Source: Akkermansia massiliensis (GTDB taxonomy: Bacteria; Verrucomicrobiota; Verrucomicrobiia; Verrucomicrobiales; Akkermansiaceae). From it: 64,000 nucleotides of DNA. Made by a program: the position numbers and the translations under genes. Below the pieces are notes generated by a model that was not told where the DNA came from, searched no databases, and saw only the letters and a program-made list of their open reading frames with translations. Positions within the stretch are counted from its first letter, which is position 1. Each line of letters begins with the position of its first letter. This document shows positions 2,217-49,632 of this stretch, piece by piece. The DNA is taken from assembly GCF_023516715.1 (NCBI RefSeq), contig NZ_JAMGSI010000002.1:62001-126000 (forward strand), read 5' to 3'.

Positions 2217-3785
2217 GTGGCAGATCGTGAGAAACCATCTCTGAAGGAACTCTGGAGGCAAACTCCGCATAAACCCGGCGTTTACATCATGAAAGACGCC
2301 CTGGGGAATACCATTTACGTGGGCAAGGCCAAGGACCTCCACCGCCGCCTGGGCAACTACTTTTCCCCCACGGGGGCCACCCTGTCCAACCACAAGACAA
2401 GGGCGCTCATCAATGCCATTGCGTCATTCGACTACTTTGAAACCAGGAACGACCAGGAGGCTTTTCTGCTGGAAAGCAAGCTCATCAAGCAGTACCGCCC
2501 GCATTACAACATCCAGATGAAGGATGACAAGCGCTATCCCCTGCTGAAGATTCCCAAGGGGGAAAAACTGCCGCGCTTCCAGCTGGCGCGGGTGCGCAAG
2601 GACGACGGAGCGCGCTACTTCGGCCCCTTTGTCCACTCCCAGGCGCTTTACGCCACGCAGGAATGGCTGAACCGGCATTTCCGGCTGCGGACCTGCAAGG
2701 CCAAAAATCCGGGTCTCCACGAGTTCAAGCACTGCCATGCGGACGTGATACGCAACTGCTCCGCCCCGTGCATCGGGCGCATTTCCGTGAGCGACTATAA
2801 CCGGAACTTCGACCAGGCGGCGCGCCTGCTGGAGGGGACCGGCAAAAAAAGCACTCTGGACGAGCTCACCCGGGAAATGATGCAGGCCTCCGACGAGCTG
2901 GACTTCGAGCGCGCAGCGTACCTGCGGGACATCCGGGACAACCTGGTCAAGGTTCTGGAGCCCGCGCGGCGGTTCCAGAAGGGAACGCCCAACCTGCCCG
3001 GCACCGTGCGCCCGGAAGAAGACATGAAGGAACTGGGGCTGGCCCTGGGCCTGGAAGAGCCTCCAGCCATCATGGAATGTTTTGATATTTCCAACGTCTC
3101 CTCCAACCACATCGTGGCCTCCATGGTGCGCTTCACCAACGGCAAACCGGACAACAAGGCCTACCGCCGCTACCGCATCCGCACGGTGGACGGGCAGAAC
3201 GACTTCGCCTCCATGTCTGAAGTGATCCGGAGGCGCTACTCCCGCATTCTGGCGGAGAGCGACGCCGTAGCCTCACGGCCCGCAGACATGACCCTGTACC
3301 AGTGGCTCAAGAAGCTCAGCGGAGAAGGAAAAGCCCCCATCAAGGTTCCGGACCTGGTGGTGGTGGACGGCGGCAAAGGCCAGCTCTCCTCCGCCCTGGC
3401 CGATCTGGAAGCCATCGGACTGGGTGACATGCCCATCGTCGGCCTCGCCAAGCAGCGGGAGGAAATCTTCTTCCCCCACCAGCCACAGCCCCTCTGCCTG
3501 CCGCACAGCACGGGAGCCCTCAAGCTCATGCAGCGCATCCGCGACGAAGCCCACCGCTTCGCCAACGGCTATAACGAACTGCTTTACCGGAAGCGCATGC
3601 GGGAAAGCGCCCTGGACGACGCCCCGGGCATGAGCGCGGCAAAAAAAAGCATGCTGCTGGAAAAATTCAAGTCCGTGGCCGCCATCAAAAGGGCGGACCC
3701 GGCTTCCATCGCCGCCATCCGCGGCATTTCGGAAACCTGGGCCCGCAACCTGCTGAACTACCTCAATTCATCCTCCAACTCCTGA
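2217..3785 (+). CDS. uvrC: Excinuclease ABC subunit C
   Basis: UvrC makes both incisions in nucleotide excision repair with UvrA and UvrB. From the proposed GTG start at 2217 it is 522 residues. The GIY-YIG nuclease is at the N-terminus (GVYIMKDALGNTIYVGKAKD, about residues 21-40). Four cysteines follow in the spacing of the family's Fe-S site (RTC, KHC, RNC, APC, about 160-190). Then come a UVR UvrB-binding helix (about 220-255), the RNase H-like endonuclease (MECFDISNVSSNHIVASMV onward) and a C-terminal HhH pair. It is shorter than the usual 600 residues but has every domain. An upstream ATG at 2163 would add a hydrophobic stretch unlikely for a cytosolic nuclease, so GTG 2217 is preferred. 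rlmH follows after 6 bases. Confidence 0.95.
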   Translation: MADREKPSLKELWRQTPHKPGVYIMKDALGNTIYVGKAKDLHRRLGNYFSPTGATLSNHKTRALINAIASFDYFETRNDQEAFLLESKLIKQYRPHYNIQMKDDKRYPLLKIPKGEKLPRFQLARVRKDDGARYFGPFVHSQALYATQEWLNRHFRLRTCKAKNPGLHEFKHCHADVIRNCSAPCIGRISVSDYNRNFDQAARLLEGTGKKSTLDELTREMMQASDELDFERAAYLRDIRDNLVKVLEPARRFQKGTPNLPGTVRPEEDMKELGLALGLEEPPAIMECFDISNVSSNHIVASMVRFTNGKPDNKAYRRYRIRTVDGQNDFASMSEVIRRRYSRILAESDAVASRPADMTLYQWLKKLSGEGKAPIKVPDLVVVDGGKGQLSSALADLEAIGLGDMPIVGLAKQREEIFFPHQPQPLCLPHSTGALKLMQRIRDEAHRFANGYNELLYRKRMRESALDDAPGMSAAKKSMLLEKFKSVAAIKRADPASIAAIRGISETWARNLLNYLNSSSNS

Positions 3786-7997: not shown

Positions 7998-8738
7998 ATG
8001 GCCTACCGAAAACTCCAGGATCTTCCCTTCCAATCCCTGCCGCGGGAAAAGCTGCTCCGCCAGGGAAGGCACAGCCTCAGCAATGCGGAACTGCTCGCCA
8101 TCTTCCTGCGGATGGGCATCAAGGGAAAAAACGTGCTGGACATGTCCTCGGACCTGATCCAGTCGGCAGGCTCTCTGGACGCCCTGGCCCACATGGAGGC
8201 CGCAGAAATAGCGGACATCTGCAAGGGAATAGGCATGGCGAAAGCGGCCACGCTGAGCGCCGCCTTTGAACTGGGAGCGCGGGCTCTCCGGGAAACGCTG
8301 GCCCGGCAACCTATCCAGACGCCGGAAGACGTCTATGACTACCTGGTAACAGCCATGCGCTGGAAGGACAAGGAGACGGTACTCGTCCTGCTGCTGGATA
8401 CCAAAAGCCGTCTCATCAAACCCGTGGAAATTTCCAGCGGCACCCTGAACGAATCCATCGCCCATCCGCGCGACATTCTGCGTCCCGCCGTCATCCACAA
8501 TGCCTACGGCTTCGTCCTGGCGCACAACCATCCCAGCGGGAACCCGGCACCCAGCCGTATGGACGACCTCCTGACCGAACGCGTGCGGGAATGCGCCAAG
8601 CTATTGGGCGTCCGGTTCCTGGACCACGTGATCATCGGAAAACCTACCGAAACCGTTCACAGAAACTATTACAGCTACAATCATCCCAACGGAGACCGGC
8701 TCCGGGAAGCCGACAAGGGTCTCCCTCTCTATCATTAA
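7998..8738 (+). CDS. radC: RadC family protein (JAB/MPN domain)
   Basis: 246 residues, the normal RadC length. The N-terminal half has an HhH-like region (LRQGRHSLSNAELLAIFLRM). The C-terminal half is a JAB1/MPN metalloprotease-like domain with the JAMM motif HNHPSGNPAPSRMDD near residues 175-190 and an upstream glutamate. The family is widespread and was named from a DNA-repair phenotype later attributed to another gene, so its true role is unsettled. It starts one base after the nnr stop, so the two likely share a transcript. Confidence 0.93.
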   Translation: MAYRKLQDLPFQSLPREKLLRQGRHSLSNAELLAIFLRMGIKGKNVLDMSSDLIQSAGSLDALAHMEAAEIADICKGIGMAKAATLSAAFELGARALRETLARQPIQTPEDVYDYLVTAMRWKDKETVLVLLLDTKSRLIKPVEISSGTLNESIAHPRDILRPAVIHNAYGFVLAHNHPSGNPAPSRMDDLLTERVRECAKLLGVRFLDHVIIGKPTETVHRNYYSYNHPNGDRLREADKGLPLYH

Positions 8739-8781
8739 ACAACGGTTCCCGCGAATTTCCTTCCGGAACGACGCCTGATAA

Positions 8782-38527: not shown

Positions 38528-40627
38528 TTACCCCGTCACACGTTTTTCCTCCCCGTTTTCCAGCAGAAAACGGAGGGGGCGGTACTTGGCGGATTCCAGA
38601 TTGGGGTCCTCCGCCAGAATGGCCTCCGCCAGCTCCCGCCCGCGGTGAATCAGGCGCGCGTCCAGCAGCCATTCCTCAAAGCGCACGCCCTTCAGGCCGC
38701 TCTGGGAAGTGCCCAGCACGTCCCCGGGACCGCGGAGCTTCAAATCCTGTTCCGCCAGGTCAAAACCGTTGGCCGTGGTTTCCACAATATGCAGCTTTTC
38801 CCATTGTTCATCCTCCGGCCGGGCCTCCGTCATCAGGATGCAGTAGGACTTGTGCGCCCCGCGGCCTATGCGCCCGCGGAGCTGGTGGAGCTGGGAGAGC
38901 CCGAAACTCTCCGCATTATTGATAATCATGACCGTAGCATTCGGCACATCCACCCCCACCTCCACCACCGTGGTAGCTACCAGCACGCTGATGCGGTTGG
39001 CGCGGAAGTCCTTCATCACCGCCTCCTTTTCCTCGGAGGACATCCTGCCGTGCAGCAGTCCCACATCCACATGCGGCAGCAGCGCCTTCCACTCGTCCAG
39101 CTCCTTTGTCACGGCTTTCCCTTTCCGGGAATCCTCCCCGTCAATGAGAGGGGAAACCACGTAAACCTGCCTGCCTTCCTCCAACTGGCTCCGGACGAAC
39201 TTCAATACCTTTTCCTGGTCCTTCTCCGTGCGGATGGCCGTAACCACCGCGCCACGGCCTCCGGGAACGCCGTCCAGGATGGAAACGTCCAGCTCCCCGT
39301 AAAAAGTCAGCGTCAGCGTGCGGGGAATGGGGGTGGCGGTCATCACCAGCACGTCGGGGCGCTCTTCGCGGTCAATCAGCTTTTCCCGCTGGTTCACGCC
39401 GAATTTGTGCTGCTCGTCAATCACGACCAGGCCCACACGTTCCGGCACGTTCTTCCCGTACAGCAGGGCATGCGTTCCGACCACAATCCCCCCCTGCTTC
39501 CCGAAGGATACGTGGGATTCCTCCTTCCTGTCCGCCGTCACCAGGGACACGGGAACGTCCAGCTTGTCCAGCATCTGCCGGAACTTCAAATAATGCTGTT
39601 CCGCCAGAATCTGGGTGGGGGCCATCATCACGGCGGAATACCCGTGTTCCACAGCCAGCAGCATCGCGCACAGGGCCACCAGCGTCTTTCCGGACCCTAC
39701 ATCCCCCTGGAGCAGGCGGTTCATGGAACGGGGCGCCTTCATATCCCGGTAAATCTCCCTCACGCAGCGCTTCTGGGCCTCCGTCAGCTCAAACGGCAGT
39801 GAATCCGCCAAATCCTTCACCAGATGGCTGGAGCCTGCCGTCTGCATGCCGGGCACTTCATCCGCTCGCCTTCTCCTGTAAGCCACGTTCAACTGCTGCG
39901 CCAGGCACTCCTCCAGCGCAAACCGCCGCCTGGTCCGGTCGCGCACTTCCGCGGTCTCCGGAAAATGGAGGTCCCTCAACGCCGTTTTGCACGGGATGTC
40001 CGGCACAAACTCGTAAATCTCCGGTTCCGGAGCCGGGGAAAGCCGGGCCAGAGCCTCCCACACGATTTCCCGCAGCCTGCGCACGGCAATCCCCATGCGG
40101 CCGCTGTAAACGGGAACAATGCGGTTCAAATGGATGGACTGGTCGTCCCCTTCCCGGATGATCTCAAAATCCGGATGGACGATGCTGAGCTTCTTCCCAT
40201 ACGGCTTCACGCGCCCGTACACGATCATCTCCTGCCCGGCGCACAGCATCCTGGCTATGCCCGGCATGCTGAACCACAGGCAGGAAAAACGGGCCTGCCC
40301 CAAAGATTGCTCATCCACCAGCACGGCTTCCACATACCGCCCGCGGCCCTTGCCGCCCTTCCCTCCCCAGCCTTTCCAGCCCACGTCCACCACCCGCCCC
40401 CTCAGGCAGACAGGCGCACCGGATGACAGGGAATCATAACGGTCAAACATGCGGCGGTCCTCATACCTGCGCGGCAGCATGAACAGCAAATCCCGCACGG
40501 AGGCCATTCCCGCCGCCTGCATGGCCGCCAGCTCCCTGGGGCGGATGAAGGCGCACTCCTCCAGGGGGGACGTTAAAAGCAGCTCTCCGGCCATGGGTCC
40601 AGGCGTATTCCTCACAGATCGCATCAT
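38528..40627 (-). CDS. recG: ATP-dependent DNA helicase RecG
   Basis: 699 residues, the usual length. RecG remodels stalled replication forks and branched recombination intermediates. The N-terminal wedge domain (about 60-230, OB fold) is followed by helicase motifs I (GDVGSGKT, near residue 307), II (DEQH, near residue 405), III (TATPIPRTL) and VI ([18 protein letters not shown]), plus the TRG region after them. The ATGs at 40627 and 40624 are adjacent; either could start. The amidase lipoprotein gene 13 bases upstream is on the same strand, so the two may be cotranscribed. Confidence 0.95.
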
Positions 40628-40640
40628 GCCTGCGCGCCCG

Positions 40641-41312
40641 TCAGAGAGCGGCGGCGGGGCGGGTTTCCAGACAGCGCCTGTAATAATCCACGCGGGAGAC
40701 GAACCAGCTCCATTTATGCCCCGGGCGGCCGTTGGTCAGCAGCGGGGCCGGGCAGTTCTTGCCCGTCCAGTAATAATGGGGCACCACATTGCGGAGGGGA
40801 ATGTTGTACTGCTTCATCAGCACCGCCGTCAGCTTGGCGGAACGGTTCCAGGTGACGATGGGGTTGTGGCTCCTCACCTCCCCCATCTCAATCCCGATGG
40901 AATACATGTCTCCGGGACCGCCGCGGTCCGCATGGCGCCCCGTCTCGTTCAGCGGAATATGCTGGATGGCCCGGTACTGGTCCACCGTAAAATGCCAGTT
41001 CAGGGAACCCATGGCCCCCCTTTTCAGCGCACGGGCATGCGCCGCGGCGTCTCCCGTGGGGTTGGCCGTGCTGTGGATGGTGATGAAGCGCGGATGCATG
41101 GAATGGGAGGCGCGCCGCGCGCGGGAGCGCGGGGACATGAAATCGCGGCTGATGTGCACTTCCCGGGACATCTGGGACATGGTGCGCGGCACGGGGGGAA
41201 CGTTCTGAATCTTGAAGCTGACGGCGGGCGGGCGCGAGGCGTCCGAACACGCCGCCAGCAGGGCCGGCAGCACCAGAAACACCGCATTTGCCATCAACGT
41301 TCTAACATTCAT
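40641..41312 (-). CDS. N-acetylmuramoyl-L-alanine amidase, lipoprotein
   Basis: 223 residues. A signal with lipobox ALLAAC (Cys about 22) anchors it to a membrane. The domain is amidase_2 (PGRP-like): zinc ligands are suggested by FITIHSTAN (His about 80), the WHFTVD block near 105 and [16 protein letters not shown] near 177, where the family has H.....K.CPG. It cleaves the bond between MurNAc and L-Ala in peptidoglycan, for remodelling or recycling. It precedes recG by 13 bases. Long antisense ORFs over it are shadows. Confidence 0.9.
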
Positions 41313-41526
41313 GATTCTTCCCTAGACTATCCGGCGCGAGCTGGCAAGCAGATTTCCAGTCAAAACAGGCTTTTTCACCCTTCCCGGAGCACAGCAGCGG
41401 GGAAACGGGAGCCCCCGCGGAACGCTCCGGAGCGGCCACCGCCGGAATCAGGGCAACGCCTTCCCCTGCACGGGGTTTCCCCTCCGGGAGCAACCAAACC
41501 GCCCCATAAAAAGCCGCACGGGAGAC

Positions 41527-41555
41527 TTGCCAACGGCCATTTCCGTGCATACACT
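41527..41555 (+). promoter_or_regulatory. Putative pckG promoter
   Basis: TTGCCA (41527-41532), a 17-base spacer and TACACT (41550-41555). Initiation near 41562 would leave a leader of about three bases before the ATG at 41565. No Shine-Dalgarno precedes the ATG. Confidence 0.5.
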
Positions 41556-41564
41556 ATTTCCACC

Positions 41565-43391
41565 ATGAGTACCACTCACGAAGCAGCTAAGAAGTGGGTC
41601 GACGAAATCGCCCAGCTTTGCCAACCCGACTCCATCTATTGGTGCAACGGCTCTCAGGAAGAAAATGATGAGCTTTGCAACATGATGGTAGAAAAGGGCA
41701 CCTTTATCAAATTGAACCCCGAGAAGCGCCCCGGATGCTTCCTCGCCCGTTCCACCCCTTCCGATGTGGCCCGTGTGGAAGACCGCACGTTCATCTGCAG
41801 CGAGAAGGAAGAAGACGCAGGCCCGACCAACCACTGGGCCGACCCCGTTGAAATGAAGGCCAAACTGAAGGGCTTCTTCAAGGGCTGCATGAAGGGCCGT
41901 ACCATGTACGTGATCCCCTTCTGCATGGGTCCCCTGGACTCCCCCCTGGCCAAGATCGGCATTGAAATCACGGACTCCCCCTACGTCGTGGTCAACATGC
42001 GCATCATGACCAAGATGGGCGAAACCGTTCTCAAGCGTCTGGAAGACGAAGTCAAGGGCGGCGGCAACCCGAAGCGCGACGGCTACGGAACCTTCGTTCC
42101 CTGCCTCCACACCGTGGGCGCCCCGCTTGCAGACGGCCAGATCGACGTGCCGTGGCCCTGCAACGAAGAAAAATACATCTGCCACTTCCCGGAAACGGAA
42201 GAAATCTGGTCCTTCGGTTCCGGTTACGGCGGCAACGCCCTGCTCGGCAAGAAGTGCCTGGCCCTGCGCATCGCCTCCGCCATCGCCCGCAAGAACAAGT
42301 GGATGGCCGAACACATGCTCCTTCTGGGCATTGAATCCCCGGACGGCACGAAGGCCTATGTGGGCGGCGCATTCCCGTCCGCCTGCGGCAAGACCAACCT
42401 GGCCATGCTCGTTCCCCCCGCCTCCTACCGTGAAGCCGGCTGGAAGACCTCCATCATCGGTGACGACATCGCCTGGATCTGGCCCCATGAAGACGGCACC
42501 TTCCACGCCATCAACCCGGAAAACGGCTACTTCGGCGTGGCTCCCGGCACGTCCTACAAGACGAATCCGATCGCCATGGACACCATCAAGGAAAATGTCA
42601 TCTTCACCAACGTAGGCTTGACCGACGACGGCGACGTCTGGTGGGAAGGCATGGACGGCCCCGCTCCCGCCCACGCCATCGACTGGCAGGGCAATGACTG
42701 GACCCCGGACTGTGGCCGCAAGTGCGCTCACCCGAACGCACGCTTCACCGCTCCCGCCGCCCAGTGCCCGACGATCGACCCCGAATGGCAGAACCCGGAA
42801 GGCGTTTCCCTCTCCGCGATCCTGTTCGGCGGCCGCCGCGCCACCACCATGCCCCTCGTCTTCCAGTCCCGCGACTGGACGCACGGCGTATACGTCGGCG
42901 CTACGATGGGTTCCGAAATGACCGCCGCCGCCTTCGGCAACATCGGCCAGGTCCGCCGCGACCCGATGGCCATGCTTCCCTTCATCGGCTACAACGTGGG
43001 CGACTACTGGCAGCACTGGCTGGACATGGGCAAGACCGTTGCCAATCCTCCGCTGATCTTCAACGTGAACTGGTTCCGCAAGGACAAGGACGGCAACTTC
43101 ATCTGGCCGGGCTTTGGCGACAACATGCGCGTCCTCGACTGGATCCTCCGCCGCGCCAAGGGCAAGGCGGAAGGCCAGAAGACCGTGCTGGGCGTCTCCC
43201 CGACCTACGACGAACTGGACAAGACCGGCATCGACTACAGCGAAGAACAGTTCAACGCCAACATGGCTCTCAACCCGAGCGAATGGAAGGCTGAACTGGA
43301 AAGCCAGACCGAACTGTTCGACAAGGTGGGCAAAAAGCTCCCGGCCGAACTGGAAGAACAGCGCCAGATCCTCATCAAGAGCTTCTCCTAA
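41565..43391 (+). CDS. pckG: Phosphoenolpyruvate carboxykinase (GTP)
   Basis: 608 residues, the length of the GTP-dependent class. It interconverts oxaloacetate + GTP with PEP + CO2 + GDP, at the branch between glycolysis, gluconeogenesis and the reductive route to succinate and propionate. Motifs are the P-loop [12 protein letters not shown] with the reactive Cys (near residue 270), the kinase-2 region [10 protein letters not shown] and the substrate-binding [13 protein letters not shown]. Codon use is very biased to C and G in third positions, suggesting high expression. The frame is open upstream to 40449, but that part lies antisense to the amidase and recG genes. A strong terminator follows at 43426-43459. 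Confidence 0.97.
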
Positions 43392-43425
43392 GCGGAACTC
43401 CTGACTGAGCGTCAACTCAACAGCA

Positions 43426-43459
43426 GAGGCTGTCCCATCCGCGGGACAGCCTCTTTTTT
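43426..43459 (+). terminator. Rho-independent terminator after pckG
   Basis: GAGGCTGTCCC (43426-43436) pairs perfectly with GGGACAGCCTC (43443-43453), 6-base loop, then TTTTTT. It lies 35 bases past the pckG stop. Confidence 0.92.
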
Positions 43460-44077: not shown

Positions 44078-45127
44078 ATGAAATTAAGCTTCATTATACT
44101 GAGCCTGGTCAGCGGACTGGCGCTCTCCGCCCCTCCCCGCGAGCTTTCCTTTTATGTCGTCAGCCCGGTTGAGGGAAAAGCGCCGGTGGTCGACGGCTGC
44201 CTGAACGAGGCAGCCTGGGAAAAAGCGGCCGTATTCCGTCATTATTATGTTTACAATTGCGCGGAGCCGACTCCGGGAAAACTCAAGACGGAATTCCGTA
44301 TGCTGTATGATGAAAAAGGAATCTACCTGGGCATCATCAATTTCGAGGAGCATCCGGAAAAATTGAGGAAGATCATTACCGACTTTGACAACGCCGCCAT
44401 TTGGACCGACGACTGCGCCGAAATCTTTTTCGATGCCAGGGCCAATGGAATAAGCTACCATTGTTTCAAGGTCAATTGCATCGGAACGCGCGCCGATTTC
44501 CGCCGCCGGGACGCCGCCGTTTATCAGAATGACTGGAGCGGCACCGACTGGACCGCCCGGACCTCCATCGGCAAGGACCGCTGGACGATTGAAGCGTTTT
44601 TCCCCTGGAGCGACCTGCCCGCCAAAGCGGAAACGTCCGATATCTGGATGTTCTGCCACGTCCGTTATGCCTACTCCGGCGGAAATTTTGCCGGAGCCGC
44701 CAGTTCGGTGCTGGGCGGATATTCGAGCCCGCGCAACTTCGGCTATATTTACTTCCAGGGAGCAAATGACACCGTCTCGCCGGAAAAGATATCCGCCCTG
44801 CTGTCGCGTTCCGCGGAAGAGCCATGGTGCGCCATGGCTGGCGACACCCTGATCCTGCGAGATAAAGGTAAAAGTGTCCTTACGGAACCCGGCCAGGTGA
44901 AGAACAATGAATTCGCGGAAATTGAAAAGCTATCAGCCGAACTGGCACGGGCCTGCGGGAAATCCGCTTTTAAAAAGTACCGGGAAGAACTGGATGCGAT
45001 CAACCGTGAATGCCGTGTTCTGGAGAAAGAAAAAACCACGGTCAGCGGATTAAGGCGCCTTTACGTCCTGAAAGAGCGCTGCCGGGCGCTCAAATGGAAA
45101 ATTGCCCTGGAAGAAAGCCTGAATTAA
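44078..45127 (+). CDS. Exported CBM9-like carbohydrate-binding protein
   Basis: 349 residues with a signal peptide (residues 1-17, ending LALSAPP). Residues about 30-225 resemble the CBM9/DOMON-like domain: PVVDGCLNEAAWEKAAVF, FRMLYDEKGIYLGI, DDCAEIFFDARANG, and the closing IEAFFPWSDLPA. Such domains bind sugar chain ends and often sit on secreted glycoside hydrolases. The last 70 residues form a charged helical segment (IEKLSAELARACG onward). It is the first gene of a three-gene run with the GH42-like protein, 24 bases apart. Codon use is less G/C-extreme than in pckG, which hints at a different history. Confidence 0.82.
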   Translation: MKLSFIILSLVSGLALSAPPRELSFYVVSPVEGKAPVVDGCLNEAAWEKAAVFRHYYVYNCAEPTPGKLKTEFRMLYDEKGIYLGIINFEEHPEKLRKIITDFDNAAIWTDDCAEIFFDARANGISYHCFKVNCIGTRADFRRRDAAVYQNDWSGTDWTARTSIGKDRWTIEAFFPWSDLPAKAETSDIWMFCHVRYAYSGGNFAGAASSVLGGYSSPRNFGYIYFQGANDTVSPEKISALLSRSAEEPWCAMAGDTLILRDKGKSVLTEPGQVKNNEFAEIEKLSAELARACGKSAFKKYREELDAINRECRVLEKEKTTVSGLRRLYVLKERCRALKWKIALEESLN

Positions 45128-45151
45128 CTCAAAAAAGAAAGATACCAATTG

Positions 45152-48100
45152 ATGAAACGGTTACCGCTATTGCTCTGCATCCTGCTGACGGGCCTTGTTG
45201 CTCCCGTATTCGGCAAACTGGACGGCACTTACATTAATGAGGCCGGAATGACCCTGAAAACGCCCCATGCCGCATGGGATGAAAAAGGCGAGCTTCCCCA
45301 TAAGAAAATACTTTTTATCATGCAGCAGACGGCCTCGCGCGAGATCATTGAGCTGGTCCAGCGCTTCCCGGGCTTTGAATATGAAGTGGTTCTCACAGCC
45401 AATGAACATAGCATCGGAGCGGACGATATTTACAGCAATCCGATTGCGGGGCTGAGCACCGCCGACAAACGCCAGGAACTGGCCGCCAAACTGGCAAAGG
45501 ATTATGATCTGGTGGTCGTGGCAAACGTCGATTTTGCGGTCCTGCCGGATGAGCAGAAATTCCGCCTGATGTCGATGGTGCGGAACGGAACCGGCCTGGT
45601 CCGGATTCAATCCGGCGAACCCTGGTCCGAACTTAAGAAACTGCCTTATAAAAAACCGTACGCCAAGCCGTTGCCCCGGCCGGAATGGGTTGCCGGAAGC
45701 AACAGCCTTCCCGGAACCAGGCCTAAAAACTTTGAATCGCGTATTTTCAACGCCTGGCAGTTCGGCAATGGCCGGATCGTTGAAGTCGATTACGGCGCGG
45801 GCTACCGGCCAGGGGTGGGGCTGACGCCGTATTTCAGCTACACCACGGACTGGTTCTTCCTCTATGAAACGTCTCAGGCTTTTCTGGCCCAGGTGCTCTA
45901 TTACGCCAGCGGAGTGGAACTGCCGGCATTCTCAGTACGGCAGGACAACGGCAAATTTGCCGTAACCCCTCCGGAAAAAACCGTTGCTGTGGGCCGTATC
46001 CGGCAGGCGGATAATTCCGTCATCCGGAACAGCCTTGATTTCACGAACCTTCCGGCGGGAAGATATACCGCAGACGTATTGGTCCGCCGGGATGGCGCGC
46101 TGGTCAACTTCGGCGCCTTTCCCTTTACGGTGGAATCCGCTTTCGGGGCCGTATCAGTGGAAACGCCCAGGCTGGTGCAGGACCGCGGCCCCTTCTCCGT
46201 CACGTTGAAACTGGCTTCACCCGCGCAGGACGGTTATTCCGCCAAAGTGGAGCTGATGGACGCTCCCTACCGCAATGTATGGTTCAGCAAGACCCTTCCT
46301 TTGGAAGCCGGAAAGAAAGAGCTTTCATTCGACCTTGAAAATTACCGGATGCCGACCATCGGCGGTTATCTGCGGTGCACCGTTTACGATGCCCGGGGCA
46401 ATGCGGCACATGCTGAAAATCCGGTGATTTTCCCGGATTATTCCCTGGAGGATTATCTCCAGCTTACCTGGGGCCAGGTTGGCTGCACCTTCAACCCGGC
46501 CTTCGGGGAACGGATCATTGACCGCCTCGGCTGGAACGTATCCCTGCAATTTTTCACCAAGGGAGATATTGAAAACGCCCTGCGGAACGAAAAACTGTGT
46601 CCGTACATCTGCCGGATCGGGATGGAAGCCGGGCCGAACAATGAAACCAGGGTATTGCGCAAGCTGTGGTCCGAACAGAAAGAAAATATGGAGCAGCTGG
46701 GTACGTTGAACGGTGACGAATCATTCTACCATCCATTGGTCCGGAAACTTTGGAGCGACGATCTGCGACGCCAGGCAGAATACCTGAAAGACCTGAGCCC
46801 CATGCTGTACAACCTGGGCGACGAAAATTTTTACACTTACGACGCCGGGTTCGGAGAATCGGATAAACAGCCGTTCGCCGATTTCCTGCGGCAGAAGTAC
46901 CAGACCATGGAAAACTTGAACCTTGAATACGGCGCCTCCTATGCCGGATTCGGTGAAGTGCCCCACCTCCGGCTGGACGCGGCCAAAAAAACGGGAAATC
47001 TGGTCGCTTACAATGACCACCGGGAATATATTGAAAAAATGTACGTGGACATGCATCATTTCCTGGCGGCGGAAATCAAAAAGGTTCATCCCGGAGCCCG
47101 GGTAGGCGCGGAAGGCTCCCCTCCCGGCAACCTTGAAGAAATGATTAAAGGGCTGGACTTCTGGGGCCCTTACAGCGGCATGCAGGAGAACGAGGCATTG
47201 CGCGCATTCGGCGCGGACCGGGTCCGGACCATCTGGTGGGGCGGGTATTGCTCGGAGCGTTCATCCTATCCATACAAACTTTGGGAACACCTGCTGCAGG
47301 GAGCGATCAACGGCCACGCCTGGTTCCTGATCAACCCCGCCCTGGGAGAAACCAGCCATTCCGGCGATCTCTCCGAGGCGGAATACCTGCGCCAGTACAT
47401 GCCCTATCTTGATGACTTGAACTACGGCCTCGCACAGCTGCTGATCAAAACCCCGTTTCCGGATACCGGCATCCTGTTCTACTACAGCCACACCTCCAAT
47501 TCCGCCGCCCAGGCGGACAGCCGCTGCGTCAAGCCGGACGCCAGCATGAATCCGCTGCTCCGGTATTGCTACCAGCGCGGGCTGGGCTTCAATTTCGTCT
47601 CGCCCAATACCCTGGAACGCCTGAAAAACGCACGGCTCCTCTTCCTCTGCGGAGCTTCCTCCCTGAGCGACAAAGAGTGCGCGGCCATTCTGGATTTCGT
47701 CAAATCCGGCGGCACCGTACTGGCTGACGCCAATATCGCCATCCTGAACGAAAACCTGAAAAAACGCACTGTGAACCCCCTGGGCGAACTTTTCGGGAAC
47801 CTGACGTTCGGCCAGGCGAAAGAGCTCGAAATCCAGCCTTATGAAAGCACAAGCGGAGCCCTGGCCCTGGCGGGAGAAAAGGCCCATGCAGTCCACGGCA
47901 ATCCGGGCCTGCAGCTCCGCAAGGCCGGCAAAGGAAACGCCATCCTGCTGAATGCCTCCCTCTCCGTTCTGGAAAATAATTCCCTGCCCGGCTCCTCCCT
48001 GAACACGTTCCTTGACCAGGTGGTGAAAAACGCCGGAGTCCGTCCTCTGGCCGTCATCCCCGATTTCAGCGACACCCTGATGGTCCGTCCGCGGAAGGCC

Positions 48101-48559
48101 GGAGAATTCGAACTGCTGGGCGCCCTCGGCCAGGAAAAGGACCTCGGCAAATCATTCACCGCCAAATTGCCGGAAGAAAAATACATCTATGAGTGCCGCA
48201 AAGGACTGGTGGGGAAATCAGACAAGCTTGTCTTTAAATTCTCCAATGCGCCGTTCCGCTGCTTTGCCCTGTTTGACCGGGAGCAGCAGCCGCCCGTGGT
48301 AACCGCTCCGGCCCAGGTGGCCAAAGGCGCCCGGGCCCTGCTTAAGATTTCCGGACCGGCCAATCCCCGGGAACGCGCGTACCGGATTACGGTAACGGCC
48401 CCGGACGGCAGGGAAATTCTGCACCGCAGCAAAACCATTTACGGCAAGACGGAATACCCGCTGGATTTCGCCTTTAACGATCTTCCCGGCGCATACCGCA
48501 TCACCATTGAAGACGCGGCTACAGGCTTGAATACCCAACACGAAATAGAGGTAAAATAA
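45152..48559 (+). CDS. Large exported GH42-like glycoside hydrolase
   Basis: 1135 residues from ATG 45152 with a signal peptide (ends near VAPVFGK). An N-terminal Rossmann-like domain (about 45-200, LVVVANVDFAVLPDEQKFRL) is followed by Ig-like beta domains (about 230-440). A TIM-barrel region (about 440-760) carries the GH42-like signature GDENFYTYDAGFG with a candidate acid/base Glu and the LRQKYQTMENLNLEYGASY helix. A class I glutaminase-like trimerisation domain (about 770-990, RLLFLCGASSLSDKE) and a C-terminal beta domain follow. GH42 enzymes are mostly beta-galactosidases. The substrate here is unknown and the two-domain N-terminus is not standard. The nucleophile could not be placed. 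Confidence 0.78.
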   Translation: MKRLPLLLCILLTGLVAPVFGKLDGTYINEAGMTLKTPHAAWDEKGELPHKKILFIMQQTASREIIELVQRFPGFEYEVVLTANEHSIGADDIYSNPIAGLSTADKRQELAAKLAKDYDLVVVANVDFAVLPDEQKFRLMSMVRNGTGLVRIQSGEPWSELKKLPYKKPYAKPLPRPEWVAGSNSLPGTRPKNFESRIFNAWQFGNGRIVEVDYGAGYRPGVGLTPYFSYTTDWFFLYETSQAFLAQVLYYASGVELPAFSVRQDNGKFAVTPPEKTVAVGRIRQADNSVIRNSLDFTNLPAGRYTADVLVRRDGALVNFGAFPFTVESAFGAVSVETPRLVQDRGPFSVTLKLASPAQDGYSAKVELMDAPYRNVWFSKTLPLEAGKKELSFDLENYRMPTIGGYLRCTVYDARGNAAHAENPVIFPDYSLEDYLQLTWGQVGCTFNPAFGERIIDRLGWNVSLQFFTKGDIENALRNEKLCPYICRIGMEAGPNNETRVLRKLWSEQKENMEQLGTLNGDESFYHPLVRKLWSDDLRRQAEYLKDLSPMLYNLGDENFYTYDAGFGESDKQPFADFLRQKYQTMENLNLEYGASYAGFGEVPHLRLDAAKKTGNLVAYNDHREYIEKMYVDMHHFLAAEIKKVHPGARVGAEGSPPGNLEEMIKGLDFWGPYSGMQENEALRAFGADRVRTIWWGGYCSERSSYPYKLWEHLLQGAINGHAWFLINPALGETSHSGDLSEAEYLRQYMPYLDDLNYGLAQLLIKTPFPDTGILFYYSHTSNSAAQADSRCVKPDASMNPLLRYCYQRGLGFNFVSPNTLERLKNARLLFLCGASSLSDKECAAILDFVKSGGTVLADANIAILNENLKKRTVNPLGELFGNLTFGQAKELEIQPYESTSGALALAGEKAHAVHGNPGLQLRKAGKGNAILLNASLSVLENNSLPGSSLNTFLDQVVKNAGVRPLAVIPDFSDTLMVRPRKAGEFELLGALGQEKDLGKSFTAKLPEEKYIYECRKGLVGKSDKLVFKFSNAPFRCFALFDREQQPPVVTAPAQVAKGARALLKISGPANPRERAYRITVTAPDGREILHRSKTIYGKTEYPLDFAFNDLPGAYRITIEDAATGLNTQHEIEVK

Positions 48560-48561
48560 TC

Positions 48562-49632
48562 ATGCAGAAACTCACCCTGACCGTACTGGCCGGATTGTGC
48601 ACCACACTGCTGTACGCCGCCCCCTCCATTGAAAAGAAAGAAGAGAAATTTGACCGCAAGGGAACTCCCGTCCTTGTGACCCGCCATACCGTCAACCTTG
48701 GCAACGGAAAAATCAATTACCACACCGTTACCAATCCCAATGACAACAAGCCGGTTCAGCAGGAATGGGGGGATTTCAGATTCGGCATCGAATATTGGAG
48801 GAACCCCAATACTCCCGGAAGCTGGAGTCCCGTCAATTTCCTTGCCGTGATCGGCAAGGACGGCAAAACACTGCTGGACCGGAAAGTCGCGGAAAAAATT
48901 GACACCGTAGAAAACGGCAAGATGGAAATGGCCGTATTCACGTTCCGCCCGGAAAACAGTGTTCTGGACGTCAGGATAGCGCAGTTCAAGGATCGCCCGG
49001 ACTGGCTGTTCGTCAAGGTCAGTTATCCCGGACAACTGTATGAAGTCTGGGCGTCGCCGGTTCACGGTTACGGGAAGCCGGAACTGAAGTCGCAATTCGC
49101 CCTGAAAGAAGGAGACGGGGAAAAACCATGCGGAAAGCCGGACTGGGTTCTGACGAAAACAACCGGGGGAAACGGGGTAATGAACTTCAACCGCTATGCT
49201 TACAAGGAGTTCGGCACGTTCATCGTTTTTGAAAAAGAATCCCTCCGCCAGATCCGGATTCATGGAGATGATATCAAATTTGAGCTGAAGCCGGAGTCGG
49301 ACAGCTTCAGTTTTGCCATAAGTTATTTCAAAGACCGGAAGCCGGAGGAGGTGCGCCCGGAATTCTTCAACGTGACGGTTCCGGAGGTGGAGAGCTTCCT
49401 GAAGTCCATCAATTGGAGCCCGATCCCCGACCGGAAGACGTTTTCAGAGCTTGCGGATGAAACCCGGAAAAACATCTCCATCCTGAAAAGGGATGGCGGC
49501 CATGCGGCGGACTATGAAAAGAGAGTGAAAGAACTGGAAACCGATTTTTCCGAAGCGCCGAGTTTTGAAACTCTGGCCGCCCTCCGCGAACTGAATAGGG
49601 AAGTCATCAAGAAGAACCTTGAAAACCTGTAG
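48562..49632 (+). CDS. Exported protein of unknown function, third gene of the carbohydrate triad
   Basis: 356 residues starting two bases after the GH42-like stop, with GAGGT as Shine-Dalgarno. The signal peptide ends at about residue 20 (LLYAAP). The mature part is beta-rich to about residue 275 (for example WGDFRFGIEYWRNPNTPGSW, WLFVKVSYPGQLYEVWAS) and ends in a charged helical tail of about 70 residues (FSELADETRKN onward). I do not recognise the family. The tail is similar in type to that of the CBM9-like protein two genes upstream, so the two may dock to a common partner. Overall it looks like a lectin- or lyase-like accessory protein, but this is speculation. Confidence 0.78.
   Translation: MQKLTLTVLAGLCTTLLYAAPSIEKKEEKFDRKGTPVLVTRHTVNLGNGKINYHTVTNPNDNKPVQQEWGDFRFGIEYWRNPNTPGSWSPVNFLAVIGKDGKTLLDRKVAEKIDTVENGKMEMAVFTFRPENSVLDVRIAQFKDRPDWLFVKVSYPGQLYEVWASPVHGYGKPELKSQFALKEGDGEKPCGKPDWVLTKTTGGNGVMNFNRYAYKEFGTFIVFEKESLRQIRIHGDDIKFELKPESDSFSFAISYFKDRKPEEVRPEFFNVTVPEVESFLKSINWSPIPDRKTFSELADETRKNISILKRDGGHAADYEKRVKELETDFSEAPSFETLAALRELNREVIKKNLENL

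Follow-up and report, generated by a model that had tools for sequence, protein, structure and literature searches.

Three adjacent genes in the window, the whole stretch of 64,000 nucleotides of Akkermansia massiliensis DNA that was analysed, make up an ancient conserved cassette. We read this trio as a horizontally acquired, extracytoplasmic glycan-cutting cassette, in which gene 2 would encode an enzyme using substrate-assisted catalysis and genes 1 and 3 its predicted binding partners; taken as a whole, this reading falls just short of an even chance. What is new here concerns gene 2: its GH42-type fold is known, and it is the residues of the active site that leave the family unplaced. No recognisable description of the trio was found in the open-licence literature that was searched.

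A compact locus for three putatively exported proteins

Gene 1 (44078..45127, 349 aa), gene 2 (45152..48559, 1135 aa) and gene 3 (48562..49632, 356 aa) are all intact open reading frames on the + strand, flanked by pckG and acpS. The gap between genes 1 and 2 is of 24 bases (45128-45151, assuming that gene 2 starts at the ATG at 45152; an alternative TTG lies one codon upstream) and that between genes 2 and 3 of 2 bases (48560-48561), exactly the tight run described in an earlier, sequence-only reading of this DNA. An ordinary-looking signal peptide, read by eye from the sequence, stands at the start of each protein, making all three putatively exported. Downstream of pckG lies a terminator-like stem-loop of 12 pairs with a T-rich tail (43425..43454, + strand), found by a pattern scan that is in itself no evidence of function; given this pattern, the trio is probably a transcription unit of its own. 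Six flanking genes were scanned (recG, an amidase gene, pckG, acpS, pdxJ and purH), and there was no SusC/SusD pair among them.

Protein 1 had been called CBM9-like, and rightly so: it scores 31.6 bits against Pfam CBM9_1 (cut-off 23.4, E 1.9e-7), as members of the family do, and 27.3 bits against CBM9_2 (cut-off 25). It ends in a charged tail of about 75 residues. Charged residues make up 0.41 of the last 75 residues of protein 1 (0.27 overall) and 0.37 of those of protein 3 (0.30 overall), where the model places helices at 291-355, so that the enrichment reported for both tails is real. The further suggestion, that both tails dock to a common partner or surface, found no support: hhalign of one tail against the other gives a probability of 35%, three relatives (L112-L114, 296-299 aa) lack the gene 3 tail although gene 1 in these loci is not shortened, and seven of nine Akkermansia carriers have a broken gene 1 and yet retain gene 3.

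An ancient cassette and its probable arrival in Akkermansia

Relatives of gene 2 occur in 80 of 387 genomes of the phylum (E <= 0.001); many are partial, and the full-length ones are mostly found in Lentisphaerota. We compared 43 gene 2 loci, 4 of them from Akkermansia. All three genes are present in 24 of the 39 non-Akkermansia loci (gene 3 in 27, gene 1 in 27, neither in 9), and in 21 of the 32 that have at least 1.1 kb on each side. The loci with gene 2 but neither of the others are the five from Armatimonadota/Zipacnadia, without exception, and four from Lentisphaerota (L131, L132, L133 and L135). The usual gene order is 1-2-3, with 2-3-1 in L138. In L137, from the Kiritimatiellae, genes 1 and 2 form a single open reading frame of 1391 codons, in which the gene 1 profile covers 12-293 and the gene 2 profile 334-1391; because of this fusion, a physical or functional link between the CBM9-like domain and the enzyme is likely in that lineage. 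What suggests a partnership for gene 3 is gene order and joint retention. The trio had been proposed to be a single secreted carbohydrate-related module, a proposal for which its authors considered a lack of co-occurrence elsewhere to be fatal; co-occurrence in many genomes and the fusion in L137 both speak for it.

Among the neighbours scanned in the loci of relatives, 10/89 are GntR-type regulators and 15/89 are pilin-like proteins with an N-methylation motif. Several Lentisphaerota loci encode, within the cassette or right next to it, a pilin-like protein with the N-terminal motif FTLIELL: its gene stands between genes 1 and 2 in L108-L111, and in the Victivallales locus L103 the pilin-like gene (8055-8768) follows a regulator and immediately precedes the trio. 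In the window, the DNA 5' of gene 1 was searched for anything left of the regulator or the pilin-like gene of Victivallales, with no match better than E 0.2. In two loci from different bins (L124 and L129), gene 3 is followed by two open reading frames of equal sizes, 456 and 1145 aa. Two divergent relatives of gene 2 share one locus in L130 (2627-6163 and 9890-13450) and in L138 (912-4424 and 8078-11638), and in the latter a second gene 1-like frame follows the second copy.

Within the class, gene 3 was found in 9/285 genomes searched, all nine from the same genus, and in 3/59 genomes of a nearer sample; over both samples, it is present in 9/51 genomes of the genus, and gene 2 in the same nine. 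In the maximum-likelihood tree of gene 2, the Akkermansia copies are sister to the Victivallales locus L103 (64% identity) with support 100/100, and the pair lies inside Lentisphaerota. The same pairing is recovered for gene 1 (support 100/100) and for gene 3 by a quick tree (SH-aLRT 99) in which L103 is represented by only 174 residues, cut off by the end of a contig. In two closely related species, G084 and G148, pckG adjoins acpS without the trio. Congruent trees and an empty pckG-acpS site together support the acquisition that the sequence-only reading had suspected. That suspicion was founded on codon use, which turns out to be a weak sign: third-position GC is 0.65-0.69 in genes 1-3 versus 0.75-0.83 in recG, purH and the frame containing pckG (a long one, 40449-43391, that includes sequence 5' of the pckG start at 41565), but several further frames of the window have values as low as these, and in codon usage the trio (distances 0.05-0.09) stays within the range of the window.

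The simplest reading of these data is that this group of Akkermansia gained the trio once, at a single site. Since the Akkermansia copies are nested inside Lentisphaerota, the donors would have been Lentisphaerota-like bacteria. The pckG genes of the two empty-site genomes are 95-96% identical at the DNA level. In a pckG tree that left out G036, they group with those of the carriers in an order that the tree leaves unresolved (supports 27-67 at the relevant forks), and for this reason G084 and G148 may have lost the trio rather than never having had it. The empty site of G084 (locus L180, G084:C1, about 3546-3685) also contains a second, decayed pckG 3' end (99 bases at 89% and 49 bases at 82%), and G025 has an extra piece of the pckG 3' end similar to it. 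Such repeated ends may be the traces of earlier insertions at pckG.

Once in Akkermansia, the three genes have fared differently. Genes 2 and 3 are intact in 9/9 carriers and under purifying selection there, with a median dN/dS of 0.17 for gene 2 and 0.19 for gene 3 (36 pairs each). Gene 1 is intact in the window genome and in G093 only. It lies in pieces in G004, G199, G109 and G102, with shared or nearly shared breaks (window 44610-44650, and 45007 or 45022 onward), has suffered a separate deletion from about 44116/44128 to 45042 in G036 and G136, and is split between two frames in G121. Since gene 1 has been broken in 7/9 carriers, in three or more distinct ways, Akkermansia can do without the CBM9-like partner, whereas genes 2 and 3 are held.

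A GH42-type fold with a different active site

The model of protein 2 (pLDDT 88.8) comprises an N-terminal alpha/beta domain at about 50-252, which is the unusual Rossmann-like domain pointed out beforehand, beta domains at about 261-428, a (beta/alpha)8 barrel at about 430-730, GH42-type domains up to about 1042 and a C-terminal beta domain. Residues 429-1042 match the GH42 beta-galactosidase structure 5e9a with a VIA Z score of 24.7 (rmsd 3.5 over 564 residues). Barrel, trimerisation-type domain and beta domain are thus common to protein 2 and GH42, whereas the N-terminal alpha/beta and beta domains are additional, and the protein itself stays below the Pfam cut-off for GH42 (PF02449, 18.1 bits for a cut-off of 21); 34/37 of its relatives match PF02449 at E <= 0.01, the best at E 4.5e-12. 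Against the PDB, the family profile found GH167 best (E 6e-14), then a beta-1,2-glucosyltransferase, GH164 and GH42. The matches to GH167 exo-carrageenases (9whd, E 6e-14; 6ptm, E 3.6e-13) cover only about 90 residues. GH167 is described as GH42-like in PMC6923384. By fold, the beta-mannosidase Bs164 of GH164 comes close as well (6t5o, Z 21.4; another Bs164 entry, Z 21.7), sharing the three-domain GH42-type architecture; like GH164, GH167 scores slightly below GH42 in the fold comparison. Matches in BFVD, with TM-scores of 0.06-0.09 of the query and resembling phage beta domains, were uninformative and set aside.

The active site tells another story. Barrel strand 4 ends in Y-x-L-G-D-E, the last two residues of which, Asp557 and Glu558 (codons 46820..46825, + strand), are a candidate catalytic pair, invariant in 37/37 relatives at identities down to 25%. 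More distant relatives, among those listed, mostly keep GDE, with GDD in one row. A profile comparison with GH42 aligns Glu558 with the acid/base of that family and Asp557 with the Asn that precedes it. In 31 open reading frames from GH42 loci of the phylum (the longest per locus, trimmed to the first Met), the two columns hold N in 26 and E in 27, with 3 rows gapped, counts lowered by a few frames that look incomplete or wrong (L205, L217, L218 and L222, 154-571 aa). The Asn-Glu pair of GH42 is therefore an Asp-Glu pair in the gene 2 family. Strand 7, located by means of the model's secondary structure, ends at residue 695, and it is at the end of this strand that enzymes of clan GH-A have their nucleophile; across residues 692-699 (RTIWWGGY, codons 47225..47248, + strand) an acidic residue occurs in 0/37 relatives, and Arg692, Trp695 and Gly697 are invariant. 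Profile alignments with GH42 disagreed on the position of strand 7 and were dropped, so that this point is taken from the modelled secondary structure. Elsewhere in or beside the barrel, Asp522, Glu654 (strand 5), Glu662 and Asp739 are acidic residues invariant among the 37, and Tyr674 is invariant too.

The nearest families place their nucleophile where protein 2 has none. In BovGH167, the acid/base is given as E295 and the nucleophile as E472 (PMC6923384), and the strand-7 nucleophile of GH167 is missing from protein 2; likewise, the nucleophile reported for Bs164, Glu-297 on strand 7 (PMC7105311), is without counterpart. The label GH42-like that the protein had been given thus stands for the fold and falls for the active site, from which both the Asn-Glu pair and the strand-7 glutamate are missing. 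As judged from model and alignments, gene 2 is a member of the GH42 neighbourhood by fold that fails the active-site tests for GH42, GH164 and GH167.

Discussion

An adjacent Asp-Glu pair at the end of strand 4 is also a feature of GH20 and GH123 enzymes. In GH20, the pair is part of a GGDE motif, also at strand 4, in which the Asp positions the substrate's 2-acetamido group and the Glu acts as the acid/base. A DE motif is likewise described for GH123 and its relatives, where the Asp stabilises the 2-acetamido group and the Glu is the acid/base (PMC11087588). Because protein 2 has such a pair and no acidic residue at the end of strand 7, and GH20/GH123-type enzymes use the pair without a protein nucleophile, substrate-assisted chemistry is favoured. 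The likeness to these families would be one of mechanism and extends to a two-residue motif only, on a protein whose fold matches are GH42-type: neither Pfam nor the PDB matches listed contain a sequence match of the gene 2 protein or its relatives to GH20 or GH123, and both families are absent from the matches listed in the PDB fold searches.

By this analogy, the gene 2 protein would be a secreted glycosidase with a GH42-type barrel and additional N-terminal domains, in which Glu558 would be the general acid/base, with no glutamate nucleophile on strand 7, and Asp557, the counterpart of an Asn in clan GH-A, would orient the N-acetyl group of the substrate so that this group attacks the anomeric carbon. 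The enzyme would then be beta-N-acetylhexosaminidase-like, and proteins 1 and 3 could be exported sugar-binding partners that hold the glycan, or hold the enzyme near it. We infer the catalytic mechanism, the N-acetyl substrate and the physical partnership in this way, as we do the direction of transfer. Substrate-assisted cleavage of N-acetylhexosaminides is, in our judgement, the most likely activity of the gene 2 enzyme, at a probability somewhat under even odds.

The invariant Asp522, Glu654, Glu662 or Asp739 could serve as nucleophile or base, and this argues against substrate assistance. The main rival builds on such a residue: gene 2 could encode a classical retaining glycosidase of clan GH-A that acts on a neutral glycan, with Glu558 as acid/base and a nucleophile relocated to Glu654, at the end of strand 5, or to Asp522, after strand 3. 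Both residues are invariant in 37/37 relatives, and the nearest structures (GH42, GH164 and GH167) are of retaining enzymes. However, in all three families the nucleophile sits on strand 7, strand 5 would be an uncommon place for it to have moved to, and the change from Asn to Asp beside the acid/base would be left without explanation, so we regard this alternative as unlikely, although it deserves to be taken seriously. It could also be that the scaffold is dead, and that protein 2 is a non-enzymatic glycan binder in a trio that captures and does not cut. The absence of the strand-7 nucleophile from all 37 relatives would agree with this, as would the resemblance of proteins 1 and 3 to binding proteins. 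Yet the Asp-Glu pair, Glu654, Tyr674, Arg692 and Trp695, invariant at identities of at least 25%, resemble a working active site, and most of the distant relatives listed, save the row with GDD, keep the DE position; we consider a dead scaffold improbable.

A comparable question arises for protein 3, which the sequence-only reading had described as beta-rich, exported and unrecognised. It has no match in Pfam, NCBIfam or PDB sequences, and 28/29 of its relatives are without any Pfam family, the remaining one matching DUF4961; an unrelated housekeeping family, the finding that would have spoken against the module, did not turn up in the profile search. The model (pLDDT 85.1) is a galactose-mutarotase-like beta-supersandwich followed by a helical C-terminal part. 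Its best VIA match, with Z 15.4 and an rmsd of 3.0 over 207 residues, is the alpha-N-acetylgalactosaminidase 5wzn; lyases, GH38 enzymes and galactose mutarotases follow closely, the last at Z about 14, including the mutarotase-like chains 3os7 and 3ty1 at 14.2 each. Since matches of such differing function score so closely, the modelled fold is clear and yet does not give the function. The mutarotase-like matches would be expected of a sugar epimerase (mutarotase) acting on the sugar once it is released, but the supersandwich fold is also that of many glycosidases, lyases and other enzymes. Galactose mutarotases have conserved catalytic His and acid residues, whereas the invariant and nearly invariant residues of 29 gene 3 relatives (M1, G75, G86, W88, F93, W148, P166, F268 and W285) include neither a His nor an acid. 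This is evidence against an epimerase, a role that we find very improbable.

Returning to substrate assistance, a broader account would be that of an unplaced glycosidase family in which a GH42 scaffold exchanged Asn-Glu for Asp-Glu, lost its strand-7 nucleophile and switched from covalent double displacement to substrate-assisted catalysis, and which works with two dedicated exported partners (one of them from an unnamed family) and has spread from Lentisphaerota to mucus-living Akkermansia. Such a chain of events is possible, and we hold it only tentatively, at less than an even chance. If the substrate carries an N-acetyl group, mucin would be a fitting one in Akkermansia. The cassette itself is older than the mucus niche of the genus, as its relatives come from rumen and gut bins as well as from other settings.

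If the mechanism is true, the gene 2 family would illustrate a step in how a fold of clan GH-A can change its catalytic chemistry, and a defined set of enzyme and partners would be available for testing. The family of gene 3, which has no Pfam entry, now has a predicted fold and a gene partnership. For Akkermansia, the cassette would be a putative glycan-use trait limited to some species of the genus (9/51 genomes), which could help to explain differences between them.
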